Positions 3,500 to 35,644 of a stretch of DNA of 35,644 nucleotides are shown one piece after another (the stretch's first letter is position 1; every line of letters begins with the position of its first letter). The stretch is from positions 1 through 35,644 of the forward strand of contig JAJPXU010000134.1 in NCBI GenBank assembly GCA_021205305.1, read 5' to 3'. The notes beneath the pieces were generated by a model. That model saw only the letters and a program-made list of their open reading frames with translations, was not told where the DNA came from and searched no databases. Both the position numbers and the translations under genes were made by a program. This DNA is from Lachnospiraceae bacterium. GTDB lineage: Bacteria > Bacillota > Clostridia > Lachnospirales > Lachnospiraceae.

Positions 3500-4489
3500 T
3501 TATTCCCGCGTCGTCCCTCCATTGACATAATGCACCGGCAGGCATACGAGTGGGGGCGCTTTCGACAAGTCAGAGTTCAAAAGCAGATTGACGCTAGTCT
3601 GGGCGATCTGCTCGATTGGCTGTACGATGGTGGAACAGTAATACTGGCCGGTAGCGTAATCCTTTATCCCGTCGAACCCGATGACCTGCACGTCCTGCGG
3701 GACGCGGATGCCAAGCTCATACAGCTTCACGATCATAAGGCGGGCCAGCGTGTCTGTGCCGCAGAAGATGCCGTCGAAATCAAATTTCCCATCTGTGATG
3801 TGTTCAGTAAGATAATCATAAAAAACAGAATAGGGAGTGCCGTCGGTCAGGCAGAGCATCTGGTAGTCGAGTCCCATGGAGACACAGGCGCTGACAAAGC
3901 CGTCCCGCCGTTTGGTGGCCTCGTTGGGCAGGGCGGAGCTGATGCTCATATGCAGCAGGCGCTTACAGCCGAACTCAGCGAGCTTCTTCACGGCGAGCTG
4001 TCCGCCCGTGAGGTTGTCGCTGGCCACACAGGGGGATACGACGCCGGAGTGCCGGTCGATGGTTACTAGCCGGGTGCTTTCCCGAATCTGTAACCCTTCA
4101 TTATAGGAAATGCAGATGATGCCGTCTACCCGGTTCTGCTCTGCCATGTCGAGGAGCGCCTGTTCCATCTCCGGGCTGGCCTGTGTCGCGCACAGCAGCA
4201 TCCGATATCCGTTTTTCGCCAGCTCACGGTTCACGTAGAAGGTCAGTTCCCCGAAAAATGGGTTGATCGTGTCCGGGACCAAAAAGGCGACGGTCTGTGT
4301 CTTATTCGACTTCAGCCCCTGCGCGTAGCTGTTGACCCGGTAATCCAGCTTGTGGATGGCGGCGTCCACCTTTTTCTGATAATCCTTTCCCACCGGAATC
4401 CCGTTTACGACCTTGGACACGGTGCCAAGCGACACGCCCGCCTCTTTCGCGACGTCTTTCATGGTGGGTGAAACATTTTTCTCTGCCAT
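3500..4489 (-). CDS. LacI/GalR-family transcriptional regulator of the fructan locus
   Basis: A 329-residue DNA-binding repressor. The N-terminal helix-turn-helix is clear (PTMKDVAKEAGVSLGTVSKVVNG, residues 8-30). It is followed by the hinge helix region (KLDYRVNSYAQGLKS) and a periplasmic-binding-like sugar-sensing domain (TVAFLVPDTINPFFGEL, DGIICISYNEG, VIGFDGIKDY). ATG at 4489 is preceded by AAAGGAG at good spacing. It is transcribed away from the permease operon beginning at 4988, and the region between holds a promoter for each direction plus operator-like repeats. By position it most likely represses the fructan genes and is released by fructose or a fructo-oligosaccharide. The effector is inferred, not visible. 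Confidence 0.9.
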   Translation of the reverse strand: MAEKNVSPTMKDVAKEAGVSLGTVSKVVNGIPVGKDYQKKVDAAIHKLDYRVNSYAQGLKSNKTQTVAFLVPDTINPFFGELTFYVNRELAKNGYRMLLCATQASPEMEQALLDMAEQNRVDGIICISYNEGLQIRESTRLVTIDRHSGVVSPCVASDNLTGGQLAVKKLAEFGCKRLLHMSISSALPNEATKRRDGFVSACVSMGLDYQMLCLTDGTPYSVFYDYLTEHITDGKFDFDGIFCGTDTLARLMIVKLYELGIRVPQDVQVIGFDGIKDYATGQYYCSTIVQPIEQIAQTSVNLLLNSDLSKAPPLVCLPVHYVNGGTTRE

Positions 4490-31495: not shown

Positions 31496-31552
31496 CATTG
31501 TTCAATCGGAAATTGCGCCCGACGCATCGGATAAGATTGTGAGGTGCAAAAG

Positions 31553-32635
31553 ATGAATGTCAGGAAAAAGTACAGAAGGTTTGTCTGCTCGCTTTTACTT
31601 TTTGGTATATTCGCTCTGGCGCTTTGCGGAATGGCGGTGTTCCGGAATATGACACTTGCGGATCAACAGGTGGAGAGCAGCGCATCCGTGGCGGAGAGAA
31701 AAAAGGTCTATGTGGGCGGCACGCCGATCGGTATCTATCTGGAGACGGACGGCGTGTTTGTTGTAGATACCGGAACCATCACGGCGGCGGACGGCAGCGC
31801 CTGCTGTCCGGCGGAAAACATCGTGCAGTCCGGCGACTACATTCAGGCAGTCAATGGAGCGTCTGTCAATACCAAAGAAGAGCTGATCGCCTGCATCCAG
31901 GAATCAGACGGCGAAACACTGGTCATGGATGTTGACCGTCAGGGCGAGCAGATCAGTCTGAAAGTAGTTCCGGTCAAAGATACAGACGGCGAGTACAGAG
32001 CCGGAATCTGGGTGCGAAACGATACACAAGGCATCGGGACACTCACTTATGTCGACGAAGACGGTTACTTTGGCGCGCTTGGACACGGGATCAGCGATGT
32101 CGATACAGCCGAGCTTCTGAGCATCCAGAACGGCACACTTTATGACGCAGAAGTCGTCTCCGTAGTCAAAGGCGCGTCCGGATCGCCTGGGGAATTGTCA
32201 GGAATCATACACTACAGCGCCAGCTATCAGATCGGCACCATAGAAGAAAACAGTGAAAACGGCATCTTTGGGCGTGTCACCGGTTTCTCGCTGGCCATAG
32301 AAGATCAGACTCTCTATGAGACTGCCCTCAAACAGGAAGTCGAACTGGGAGCGGCCACTATCCGCTGTACCGTAGATGGAACCTGTCAGGAATATGAGGT
32401 CGAGATCAAAGAAATCCGCTTAAATGGCAGCGATGTCAACAAAGGCATGGTGATCGAAGTGACCGACCCTGCGCTCCTTGCGAAGACCGGCGGCATTGTG
32501 CAGGGAATGTCCGGCTCACCAATCCTGCAAAACGGCCGCCTTATCGGAGCTGTGACCCACGTGTCTGTGTATATCTCGTACCGACAAATTCGTGATTTTT
32601 TTCAGTGTTTTCTCAGAAAAATGGTTCAAAATTGA
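31553..32635 (+). CDS. spoIVB: SpoIVB-like sporulation serine peptidase (S55) with replaced C-terminus
   Basis: In sporulation, SpoIVB made in the forespore cuts SpoIVFA and so triggers SigK activation in the mother cell. Here 360 residues include an N-terminal membrane anchor (LLLFGIFALALCGMAVF), a PDZ domain (residues about 80-145, IVQSGDYIQAVNGASVNT) and the S55 domain. The catalytic His is in FGALGHGISD, the catalytic Asp is probably in the VTDPAL region, and the Ser is in GMSGSPIL. The family normally continues AVTHV-FVNDPTRGYGIF. Here AVTHV is followed by VSVYISYRQIRDFF and a short basic tail, so conservation stops at about base 32563. ATG at 31553 has GAGGTG upstream. I infer that a mobile element supplied the new tail; activity is uncertain. 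Confidence 0.88.
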   Translation: MNVRKKYRRFVCSLLLFGIFALALCGMAVFRNMTLADQQVESSASVAERKKVYVGGTPIGIYLETDGVFVVDTGTITAADGSACCPAENIVQSGDYIQAVNGASVNTKEELIACIQESDGETLVMDVDRQGEQISLKVVPVKDTDGEYRAGIWVRNDTQGIGTLTYVDEDGYFGALGHGISDVDTAELLSIQNGTLYDAEVVSVVKGASGSPGELSGIIHYSASYQIGTIEENSENGIFGRVTGFSLAIEDQTLYETALKQEVELGAATIRCTVDGTCQEYEVEIKEIRLNGSDVNKGMVIEVTDPALLAKTGGIVQGMSGSPILQNGRLIGAVTHVSVYISYRQIRDFFQCFLRKMVQN

Positions 32636-32725
32636 TTTAGGAAGGCAGGGAACGTGTTGGAGATGATTCAATGCGTTCTTTTTTATTAAATACGAAAGTT
32701 CTCCGAACTTCTATTTTATGAGGGG

Positions 32726-32754
32726 CGCTCAGCGAAAATGCTGGGCGTTTTTTT
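32726..32754 (+). terminator. Rho-independent terminator at the element's left end
   Basis: CGCTCAGC (32726-32733) pairs with GCTGGGCG (32740-32747), with one G-T pair, followed by seven T. It isolates parA from spoIVB transcription. The 283-base gap from spoIVB to parA otherwise holds only short inverted repeats: AAGTTC-TCC-GAACTT at 32696-32710 and CTCTGC-TCTG-GCAGAG at 32858-32873. The latter lies about 45 bases before parA and may be a regulatory site. Confidence 0.8.
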
Positions 32755-32918
32755 GCGCATGGTCGCTTAAGAAATCTGGCAGCAGCGAAATGCTTTTTTG
32801 AATGATTAAACAAATCCCGGAAAACAATATCTTATATGACTTTAGTTCTTTCGGAAACTCTGCTCTGGCAGAGAATAATTTTTAAAATGATTATAAACAT
32901 TATGAGGAGGATATAAAA

Positions 32919-33737
32919 GTGAATACTCAAATCATAGCCCTGGTTAATCAAAAAGGGGGTGTGTCCAAATCAACGTCCTGTGTGAATCTTGGAATTGGAT
33001 TGGCACAAGAAGGGAAGAAAGTGCTTTTAGTTGATCTTGACCCGCAGGCCAGTATGACAATCAGTCTGGGATATCCGCAGCCTGATCAGCTTCCTGTAAC
33101 AATATCAACTGTAATGGGGAAAATACTAACTGACCAGCAAATTAGTCCTGGAGAGGGAATCTTACATCATGCAGAAGATGTTGATCTAATGCCATCTGAC
33201 ATTCAGCTATCTGGTATGGAGGTTACTCTTGTGAATATGATCAGTCGGGAGACGGTTCTGCGACAGTATCTGGATACGGTAAAGACGCAGTATACGCATA
33301 TCCTGATTGATTGTCAGCCTTCCCTCGGAATGCTTACCGTTAATGCACTGGCAGCAGCGACGCGCATTATTACACCTGTGCAGGCTGAATATCTCCCGGC
33401 AAAAGGCCTGGAACAGCTTTTACAGACAGTAGGTCGGGTAAAGAGACAGATTAATCCGGATTTGCAGATTGATGGCATTCTCCTGGCTATGGTGGATAAA
33501 AGGACAAACTTTGCAAGAGAGACCGCTACACTGATTCGCGATACGTATGGACAGAAAATCAGGGTATTTCAAACAGAAATTCCGTTTTCTGTCCGGGCGA
33601 AGGAAGCAAGTGCAGAAGGAAAAAGTATCTATGCCCACGACCCAAAAGGGAAAGTCGCAGAGGCGTACAGAGAACTGACGAAAGAGGTGATAAATCTTGA
33701 AAAGCAGCGCGAAAAACATAAAACTTACGTCCGTTGA
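32919..33737 (+). CDS. parA: ParA-type partition ATPase of the mobile element
   Basis: A 272-residue P-loop ATPase that moves or positions the element's DNA with ParB. The deviant Walker A box is NQKGGVSKST (residues 10-19), Walker A' is LLVDLDPQAS and Walker B is THILIDCQPSLGMLT. No N-terminal helix-turn-helix is seen, so it is the short chromosomal/Soj-like form. GTG at 32919 has GAGGAGG about nine bases upstream. It overlaps parB by 41 bases. Base composition is lower in GC than the chromosomal genes to the left, fitting a foreign origin. Confidence 0.93.
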   Translation: MNTQIIALVNQKGGVSKSTSCVNLGIGLAQEGKKVLLVDLDPQASMTISLGYPQPDQLPVTISTVMGKILTDQQISPGEGILHHAEDVDLMPSDIQLSGMEVTLVNMISRETVLRQYLDTVKTQYTHILIDCQPSLGMLTVNALAAATRIITPVQAEYLPAKGLEQLLQTVGRVKRQINPDLQIDGILLAMVDKRTNFARETATLIRDTYGQKIRVFQTEIPFSVRAKEASAEGKSIYAHDPKGKVAEAYRELTKEVINLEKQREKHKTYVR

Positions 33738-34653
33738 CGATCTCTTTAAGACAGATGAGAGCCGGGCGGATGATGAGAGGGAATGTGTGCAGGAGATCGC
33801 GATATCTGAACTGCATCCTTTTAAAGATCATCCATTTAAAGTCCTGGATGATGAAAAAATGATGGAAACCGTTGAGAGCGTACAGCAGTACGGGGTTCTG
33901 GTTCCGATTATCGCAAGGCCTTTAACCGAAGGAGGATATGAGATCGTTTCCGGGCATCGGCGGCATAGAGCCTGTGAATTGGCGGGGAAAGAGACAGTAC
34001 CAGTGATAGTGCGTGATTTAGACGATGATGAAGCAGTTTTGCTAATGGTAGACAGTAATCTGCAAAGGGAAACAATACTGCCGAGTGAGAGGGCGTATGC
34101 GTTTAAGATGAAATTAGAAGCAATGAAACATCAAGGGGCGCGCAATGATTTAACTTCCGCCCAAGTTGGGCGGAAGTTGGATGGTAAAGAATCCAGAGAG
34201 ATTCTTGCAGAACAAGTAGGACAAAGTCGTAATCAGGTATCACGTTATATTCATCTGACAGAGCTGATTCCCTCACTCTTAAATATGGTGGATGAAAAGA
34301 AAATCGCGTTTAACCCTGCGTATGAACTGTCATTCCTGAAACCAGAGGAACAGGAGATGTTGATTGAAACGATGGATTATGAGCAGGCAACGCCGTCGCT
34401 TTCCCAGGCGCAGCGTCTGAAGCAGTTCAGTCAGGAAGGCCATTTGACCGAAGATTCCATGCTCGCGATTATGTCAGAGGAGAAGAAACCGGTTCAGGAC
34501 AAGATTATGTTCACATCGGATGTTTTGAGAAAGTATTTCCCGAAAGACTACACGCCGAGGAAGATGGAGGAGACGATTATTCAGCTGCTGGAGCAGTGGA
34601 AACAGAGACGATTGCAGCAACAGGATCAGCAGAGACGCCATAATTCCCGATGA
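33697..34653 (+). CDS. parB: ParB-type partition protein of the mobile element
   Basis: A 318-residue centromere-binding protein. The N-terminal ParB/Srx-like domain has QYGVLVPIIARPLTEGGYEIVSGHRRHRAC (the GHRRxxAC CTP-binding motif) and DSNLQRETILPSERAYAF. A helix-turn-helix follows (ILAEQVGQSRNQVSRYIHLTELIP), and a basic Gln/Arg-rich tail ends it. Translation starts at TTG (33697), with AAAGAGGTG upstream, inside the parA end, so the pair is coupled. The same domain layout occurs in Tn1549-like elements. Its coding sequence contains the perfect palindrome at 34152-34178, which could be the centromere site itself. Confidence 0.92.
   Translation: MKSSAKNIKLTSVDDLFKTDESRADDERECVQEIAISELHPFKDHPFKVLDDEKMMETVESVQQYGVLVPIIARPLTEGGYEIVSGHRRHRACELAGKETVPVIVRDLDDDEAVLLMVDSNLQRETILPSERAYAFKMKLEAMKHQGARNDLTSAQVGRKLDGKESREILAEQVGQSRNQVSRYIHLTELIPSLLNMVDEKKIAFNPAYELSFLKPEEQEMLIETMDYEQATPSLSQAQRLKQFSQEGHLTEDSMLAIMSEEKKPVQDKIMFTSDVLRKYFPKDYTPRKMEETIIQLLEQWKQRRLQQQDQQRRHNSR
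34152..34178. promoter_or_regulatory. Perfect 13-bp-arm palindrome inside parB (parS candidate)
   Basis: AACTTCCGCCCAA and TTGGGCGGAAGTT are exact reverse complements with one base (G, 34165) between them. The stretch codes for LTSAQVGRKL in the ParB linker. Arms of this length are not needed by the protein and suggest a protein-binding site. Confidence 0.6.
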
Positions 34654-34706
34654 TGAGAGTATGCAAGATACTTTTGGGAAGCGGTAAAAATTCGCTATCC
34701 GGAATA

Positions 34707-34792
34707 CTGCGCATGAAAAGTGAAGCTCCACTATTCGGAACACTGGAGTGATGTGCGCAGTTTTCAACCAGCGTTAAAGGATAATGCTGGTT
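34707..34792 (+). promoter_or_regulatory. Two hairpins between parB and repA
   Basis: The first is CTGCGCA (34707-34713) with TGCGCAG (34754-34760), enclosing CTCCA/TGGAG and followed by TTTT. The second is AACCAGC (34766-34772) with GCTGGTT (34786-34792), flanked by TTTT-C and C-AAAA. They fill the 179-base gap and may terminate parAB or control repA, for example as a target of countertranscript RNA. Confidence 0.5.
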
Positions 34793-34832
34793 CAAAAAAG
34801 CAGAGAACCATTTACAGAAATGGAGAAGTGAG

Positions 34833-35644
34833 ATGGGAAATAAAATTGAATTTGGATATTTCCATGAGCATGAATCGGAGCAGTTTTCTTTTTACCGTAT
34901 CCCGAAACTGCTGTTTACGGATGAGCATTTCCGTGAACTGTCCTGTGAGGCAAAAGTGTTGTATGGGCTTATGCTGGACCGTATGTGCCTTTCGCTGAAA
35001 AATCATTGGATTGACCGGGAAAAACGAGTCTACATAGTTTTCACGCTTGAACAGGTTACGGAATATCTGAACTGTGGCCGCGATAAAGGAATGAAGATCC
35101 TTGCGGAGCTGGACAGCAAAAAGGGGATTGGGCTGATTGAGCGTGTAAAACAGGGATTTGGGAAACCGGATGCGATCTATGTAAAGAATTTTACCGTGAA
35201 GCAGAACGAACAGCCGGAACAGGAGACGACGGTAACACCAGAAGATAGGAACCAATCAGCCAAACCGGAGAGGGTGAACCTGTTGAGGTCGAAAAGCCCG
35301 ACTTATCGAAGTCGGAAAAATCGACCTGTCGAGGTCGGAAAAACCGACTTGGAGAGGTCGGAAAAATCGACCTGCCGGGGTCGGGAAAGTCCACCTGTAC
35401 AAGTCGAAAAAACCGACCCTAATAATACTGATATTAATAAGACTGATAGGAATGATACTGATCTTATCAATCCATCTGTGCGCGTACGCGCAAATCCGCC
35501 GGATGAGGCAGATCGGATAACTGAATACGCGGATATCATCAGGTCGAATATCGAATATGAGTATCTGGTGATGGATTCCAGCCCGGAGGACAGGTGTCGT
35601 TCGGCGAATTATTCGGAGCCGTTTTCAGCAAATTATTTTCGGCC
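34833..35644 (+). CDS. repA: RepA_N-type replication initiator, 3' end beyond the window
   Basis: Initiates replication of the element's circular form. The N-terminal domain has the RepA_N pattern: FGYFHEHESEQFSFYRIPKLLF, ELSCEAKVLYGLMLDRMCLS, TLEQVTEYLNCGRDKGMKILAELD and KQGFGKPDAIYVKNF (residues about 6-130). A polar linker coded by six 23-bp repeats follows, then NNTDINKTDRNDTD, and a segment (RITEYADIIRSNIEYEYL) that normally opens the C-terminal part. ATG at 34833 has TGGAGAAG upstream. The frame is open to the last base, so the protein is cut by the window edge. The last 25 residues look unlike the family and may mark another change. Confidence 0.85.
   Translation, partial: MGNKIEFGYFHEHESEQFSFYRIPKLLFTDEHFRELSCEAKVLYGLMLDRMCLSLKNHWIDREKRVYIVFTLEQVTEYLNCGRDKGMKILAELDSKKGIGLIERVKQGFGKPDAIYVKNFTVKQNEQPEQETTVTPEDRNQSAKPERVNLLRSKSPTYRSRKNRPVEVGKTDLERSEKSTCRGRESPPVQVEKTDPNNTDINKTDRNDTDLINPSVRVRANPPDEADRITEYADIIRSNIEYEYLVMDSSPEDRCRSANYSEPFSANYFR
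35286..35421 (+). repeat. Six 23-bp iterons inside repA (candidate replication origin)
   Basis: GTCG anchors recur at 35288, 35311, 35334, 35357, 35380 and 35403, exactly 23 bases apart. Each unit resembles AGGTCGG-AAAAA-CGACCTG and can form a small GTCGG/CCGAC hairpin. Because 23 is not a multiple of three, the encoded residues do not repeat with the DNA. Repeats inside the rep gene are where RepA_N plasmids place their origin. Confidence 0.85.

Follow-up and report, generated by a model that had tools for sequence, protein, structure and literature searches.

Close to the right-hand end of the window, by which we mean the whole 35,644-nucleotide stretch analysed (contig JAJPXU010000134.1 of a Lachnospiraceae bacterium, assembly GCA_021205305.1), is the gene for the sporulation protease SpoIVB, followed by a partition and replication module on the same strand. 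The features are as follows.

31544-32635, forward strand: spoIVB reading frame, 363 amino acids (reading-frame list and translation)
31544-32563, forward strand: host part of spoIVB, residues 1-340 up to Thr-His-Val, with PDZ and S55 peptidase domains (Pfam, alignment, dN/dS)
32508-32510, forward strand: TGT, homologous to the crossover of a second element in genomes G005 and G011, unoccupied here (alignment)
32559-32564, forward strand: core ACGTGT, common to the putative left site (attL) of the window and of genome G455 and to the putative right site (attR) of G455 (alignment)
32559-32586, forward strand: putative attL, composed of the core and a right half-site ending in CGTACCGACA (32577-32586), an inverted repeat of the G455 attR arm (alignment)
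32564-32635, forward strand: substitute SpoIVB tail attributed to the element, 23 codons and a stop (reading frame; two residue changes from the tail at locus L127)
32564-32903, forward strand: left end in common with the G455 element, 271 aligned bases, less about 69 bases present in the window alone (32685-32753) (alignment)
32919-33737, forward strand: parA (Pfam)
33697-34653, forward strand: parB (Pfam)
34833-35644, forward strand: repA (RepA_N), cut by the contig end (Pfam)

The window SpoIVB is ordinary up to its GMSGSPIL and GAVTHV motifs. Directly after Thr338-His339-Val340 (32555-32563) the sequence switches, at position 32564, to 23 codons encoding SVYISYRQIRDFFQCFLRKMVQN. The Peptidase_S55 match halts at profile position 195 of 210, in agreement with the original prediction that the family likeness holds through these two motifs and is then abruptly lost, and the protein, scored alone, reaches 297.5 bits against the TIGR02860 (spore_IV_B) cut-off of 305.25. 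Rfam matches at the junction were all sub-threshold, and an RNA there was rejected.

Elsewhere in the genus the canonical ending prevails. GYGIF is kept at 28 of the 29 loci compared (L005-L033, representing 29 of the 35 genus genomes, with the window's own locus excluded), the remaining one (L015) running off its contig, and is likewise present at L125; L126, L128 and L129 are contigs identical to L005, L006 and L007 and were counted once. The SpoIVB search returned no locus from six genus genomes; of these, G005, G025 and G034 were partly read, and the stretch past the break in G019, G020 and G022 is outside the comparison. Inheritance of the tail as a variant in species without an element was considered and rejected, given this near-uniform canonical ending and the presence of an element in the relative that has the same tail.

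Across the break the GC content drops from 0.522 to 0.446; the latter value, for 32564-35644, is below the minimum of 0.487 among 148 equal-length sliding windows upstream. The contig stops at 35644 inside repA, so that no far boundary is visible in the window. Modules of the ParA-ParB-RepA_N type seen here also occur on plasmids. The 3.1 kb of the element within the window shows no conjugation genes, and the segment 32540-32918 has no match in phage or plasmid records. A short sequence at 32677-32711, with an AAGTTC-GAACTT inverted repeat, spans the stretch missing from G455 and, in a search of 397 genomes, has matches in 12 others as well as on contig C51 of the window genome.

Comparison with 15 ParA-ParB loci (L092-L098, L100-L106 and L113, taken from 29 fetched besides the window's own) places the start of homology to the window at the start of parA. 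Upstream of parA in ten of these 15 is the 3' end of rpsI (one confirmed as Ribosomal_S9 by Pfam, nine read by eye), which indicates that the module commonly lies at the left end of integrated elements with another target. The integrative conjugative and mobilizable elements (ICEs and IMEs) described at rpsI in streptococci (PMC4701971, PMC5090054, PMC5357655) are in the same position as these relatives, past the rpsI 3' end, but their target gene differs from spoIVB, and the likeness is one of target description, not of sequence. Recombinase-like reading frames were noticed by eye at L093, L095 and L102. An impression by eye of tRNA sites at L096 and L097 was not confirmed on checking and was rejected.

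Among five loci returned by a SpoIVB scan of named genome contigs is L127 (JAJPWX010000113.1, Lachnospiraceae bacterium isolate AH.1_3, genome G455), whose hybrid reading frame is equal in length to that of the window and whose tail differs at two of 23 residues. The missing spoIVB 3' end of G455 is on a different contig (C37:9872-9943). Preceding it is a gene for a 520-residue serine recombinase (L140:8295-9854) with Resolvase, Recombinase and Zn_ribbon_recom domains; 29 bases after the recombinase stop the spoIVB 3' end begins with TTTGTCAACGATCC, and it encodes FVNDPTKGYGIFIENML, the ending lost from the window protein. A small reading frame ahead of the recombinase gene (L140:8044-8226, 60 residues) is a candidate for a directionality factor. 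Beyond the spoIVB 3' end are a pfkB-family kinase gene (Pfam) and then genes that inspection by eye assigns to a DNA glycosylase, larC, trxA and guaA. Joining the two G455 flanks in silico gives GAVTHVFVNDPTKGYGIFIENMLENE, an in-frame, ordinary SpoIVB C-terminus as in the species with an unoccupied site (G456, G015, G010 and G035). The arrangement in G015, with the spoIVB tail at the end of contig C237 and the intergenic piece and pfkB on C327, agrees with the G455 right flank. The left and right sites of G455 are on two contigs and the element is not spanned end to end; we infer that these contigs hold the two ends of one element. McrBC-like restriction genes (L127:16242-19659) are present less than 9 kb from its left end.

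Common to both G455 sites and to the window is the core ACGTGT, corresponding to codons His339-Val340. The two G455 half-sites, spaced 13 and 12 nucleotides from the core, carry a 10-base inverted repeat, which was equalled by 12 of 100000 letter shuffles. Window positions 32559-32586 differ from the G455 left site by one base; the symmetric arms are seen in G455, the window showing the left half. A core with symmetric inverted repeats makes these look like serine-integrase attachment sites.

Relatives of the G455 recombinase in phage and plasmid records are all below 60% identity, and those in viral contigs reach 63%. Of 116 viral-contig recombinase loci 80 were examined, and none of these has a convincing SpoIVB tail; searches of viral contigs with three attachment-arm patterns found no stretch. 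One viral contig (L162:4400-4588), with a recombinase 63% identical, ends 34 bases past the recombinase stop; its final letters, GTCACACACACATG, are similar to the spoIVB site.

These observations make it likely that site-specific recombination at ACGTGT brought an integrative element into spoIVB and replaced the end of SpoIVB, with a large serine recombinase as the likely agent; to judge from its ParA-ParB-RepA_N left module, the element is probably an ICE. Recombination at codons His339-Val340 would exchange the last conserved S55 strand, FVNDPTKGYGIFIENML, for 23 residues encoded by the element's own end; the same enzyme presumably acted for the window element, which we take to be conjugative. 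As long as the element stays in place, the host would have no SpoIVB or a changed one, and its sporulation would suffer unless the element leaves. A mobile element in the spoIVB 3' end that supplies a substitute tail, and AT-richer DNA with parA, parB and repA beyond it, had both been proposed from the window alone; the former is supported by the left site of the window together with the sites, recombinase and 3' fragment of G455, and the latter by composition and Pfam. A tail of the VSVYISYRQ type in element-free relatives would have spoken for the opposite view, and the sole relative with such a tail, G455, carries an element of different content. Of the far boundary that had been predicted, the recombinase gene, the short common core and the 3' fragment are all present in G455; pfkB, and not spo0A, follows.

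The draft nature of the window assembly (173 contigs, 90.9% complete), with the junction 3 kb before a contig end, would be in keeping with a chimeric contig. G455 shows this junction as well, 85% identical on the host side and joined to the same element end, which argues against an assembly error and leaves a chimera scarcely credible.

The far side of the insertion was sought in the genome that the window comes from. Searches of this 90.9%-complete assembly by protein, DNA and pattern found no spoIVB 3' fragment, and neither a recombinase of the G455 type nor a right boundary was found in it. With a DNA query that ran from the G455 recombinase across the right site into pfkB, the matches were a 167-bp pfkB 3' remnant on contig C92 and two in a short repeat (query about 3856-3910), the latter not taken as boundary evidence; the identical query recovered the spoIVB tail in G015, G456, G035 and G010 (86-89% identity), so the method is able to detect it. 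On C92 (L059:13000-15400) the pfkB remnant adjoins a gene read by eye as spoIIID. The chromosomal right flank thus looks rearranged and joined to other genes, the right boundary of the window element is lost, moved or unassembled, and nothing is available for rejoining in the genome as assembled. This flank, and the variation within the genus of the genes that follow spoIVB, could also be explained by a chromosomal rearrangement that fused spoIVB to unrelated DNA with no element involved. The precise boundaries and recombinase in G455, and the left boundary that the window has in common with it, make such a fusion very unlikely.

In the window genome spo0A is on a separate contig, C83, and its absence from the usual place had been read as a hint of insertion. 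No spo0A was found by tblastn at 48 loci of relatives, 37 of them informative in that they include the end of spoIVB with 1 kb or more of the DNA after it (some of these overlap). Since spo0A is absent beside spoIVB across the relatives, its position is a trait of the genus and no sign of insertion, and this line of evidence was rejected.

The elements of the window and G455 are alignable over just 271 bases and are 84-95% identical there. Identical positions number 71 of 75 in the tail and stop, 41 of 46 in the next block and 126 of 150 in the last, which ends at 32903. Beyond this left end the window continues with parA, parB and repA, and G455 with genes for an AlkZ-related protein, a hydrolase and McrBC. 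At synonymous sites the spoIVB genes of the two hosts have diverged far more (dS 0.81) than the element ends. Had the non-coding end been in place since the hosts separated, less than its 84-89% identity would be expected, barring constraint on it, and the alignments probably reflect two arrivals of related elements at a single site. A single old insertion with later exchange of cargo is also possible; the two hosts are sisters in a weakly supported tree (bootstrap 63, SH-aLRT 96).

Whether the hybrid protein could still work was considered from its structure and its rate of change. The paper on the B. subtilis SpoIVB structure presents His236, Ser378 and Thr393 as the likely catalytic triad and Thr393-His394-Val395 as a PDZ-binding motif. 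With a canonical relative aligned to this structure (9lnf; 24 of 31 candidate proteins were taken into the structure alignments), the break falls just past the equivalent Thr-His-Val, so that the three catalytic residues are kept and the final strand is lost. AlphaFold predictions of the hybrid and of a canonical control were both poor (pLDDT 43.9 and 40.1) and were left unused. A substitute tail that keeps SpoIVB functional, such that the element is tolerated without excision, would fit the retention of the catalytic His, Ser and Thr and of the THV motif before the break, the equal length of the two hybrid frames and the near-identity of their tails. It would also fit the dN/dS of spoIVB between the window and G455 (0.055, residues 1-339), as low as the 0.024-0.062 among 15 pairs of element-free species. 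The strand given up is nearly invariant among relatives, however, the insertions look recent, so that a low dN/dS says little on function, and the first seven or eight tail codons overlap the attachment half-site, where constraint on the DNA alone could preserve them. A working hybrid is therefore conceivable, if somewhat doubtful.

The original prediction also proposed excision during sporulation that rebuilds spoIVB, in the manner of skin. Elements in sigK, spsM, spoVFB, spoVR, gerE and yabG have been reported or proposed to rebuild their genes, and G455 holds both parts of spoIVB, both sites and a recombinase, with flanks that join in frame. For the window spoIVB the proposal finds no support: neither the 3' part nor the recombinase was found in its assembly, and the right flank is joined elsewhere. 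The timing of expression also speaks against it. In B. subtilis and C. difficile spoIVB is described as a forespore gene, and the forespore chromosome is the one passed on; excision of SP-beta and skin, by contrast, is described as confined to the mother cell, the spore thereby keeping the SP-beta prophage (PMC4191935). Because SpoIVB is made in the forespore, a rebuild like that of skin would have to take place in the inherited chromosome, and on this ground an element that, while integrated, abolishes or alters SpoIVB is rated above developmental excision. Ahead of the G455 recombinase, a promoter scan that did not extend to sporulation promoters gave a single candidate, of the vegetative type and at chance level. 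Excision of the skin kind is accordingly improbable. Far more speculatively, the ParA-ParB-RepA module might let the element live as a replicating, partitioned circle, which would exit from the forespore chromosome and thereby restore spoIVB where its product is needed, ride into the spore as an episome and reintegrate after germination; we give this little credence. If true, developmental excision would here take place in the inherited cell line and not in a doomed mother cell.

The published targets set the spoIVB elements apart. The genes sigK, spsM, spoVFB, spoVR, gerE and yabG are described as mother-cell genes or as controlled by mother-cell sigma factors, so that loss of an element there is harmless to its inheritance. 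SP-beta in spsM and skin in sigK of B. subtilis (PMC4191935) combine, as here, a site-specific recombinase with a split sporulation gene, and the SP-beta sites are built from a core and inverted repeats like those in spoIVB; they differ in having mother-cell targets, prophage or prophage-like content and mother-cell excision, spoIVB being expressed in the forespore of the model species. In the examined parts of the spoIVB elements no phage genes were recognised, save for one match to a phage-type integrase. Also within a sporulation protease gene is yin, in yabG of C. botulinum (PMC10747680), but this element is described as prophage-like, in a SigK-controlled gene and with culture data, whereas the spoIVB elements are known from sequence. 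None of the best-ranked literature matches, mostly open-access, reports spoIVB as an insertion target, which is weak evidence of absence. Further sources for these comparisons are PMC3789822, PMC11392383, PMC6581720 and PMC12502668.

A second kind of element is found in the same gene. In G005, a genome with 8% contamination, spoIVB halts at GGIVQGM with a TGA immediately after (C13:26885). Its continuation, from SGSP onwards, is on contig C3, where it starts about 64 bases past the last of three large serine recombinase genes, so that the catalytic serine is parted from the rest of SpoIVB. The arms carry an 11-base inverted repeat equalled by 11 of 100000 letter shuffles. This element (L037:6841-20000 and L038:4616-9760), which splits spoIVB at the catalytic serine motif, has actin-like and transglycosylase genes on one side and the three recombinases on the other. 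The G455 recombinase is a distant relative of each of the three (20-25% identity), and the third has no relative in viral contigs. In G011 (L036:6891-8776) an intact spoIVB is accompanied by a Fic-domain gene, the same right arm (29 of 30 bases) and a 121-bp copy of the spoIVB 3' end (93.4%); this may be a scar, or equally an element that carries its own spoIVB end. In window coordinates the two insertion sites are 51 bp apart (32508 and 32559), the G005 type upstream.

Like the G005 element, the gin element in gerE of Bacillus cereus ATCC10987 (PMC5595907) is described as a non-phage element in a sporulation gene with three serine recombinases, a likeness that also counts towards excision of the skin kind. 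It differs in that gerE acts in the mother cell and its excision during sporulation has been shown, while the case in spoIVB is drawn from genome comparison.

As read from these genomes, spoIVB is a recurrent target of elements in the genus, reached by two different serine-recombinase systems at neighbouring sites in a gene that the model species express in the forespore. This raises the question of whether such elements block sporulation, provide a working tail or exit in the inherited cell line. Further traces of the G005 type are suggested, and no more than suggested, by two contig ends, that of G025 stopping at the G005-type site and that of G021 slightly before it.
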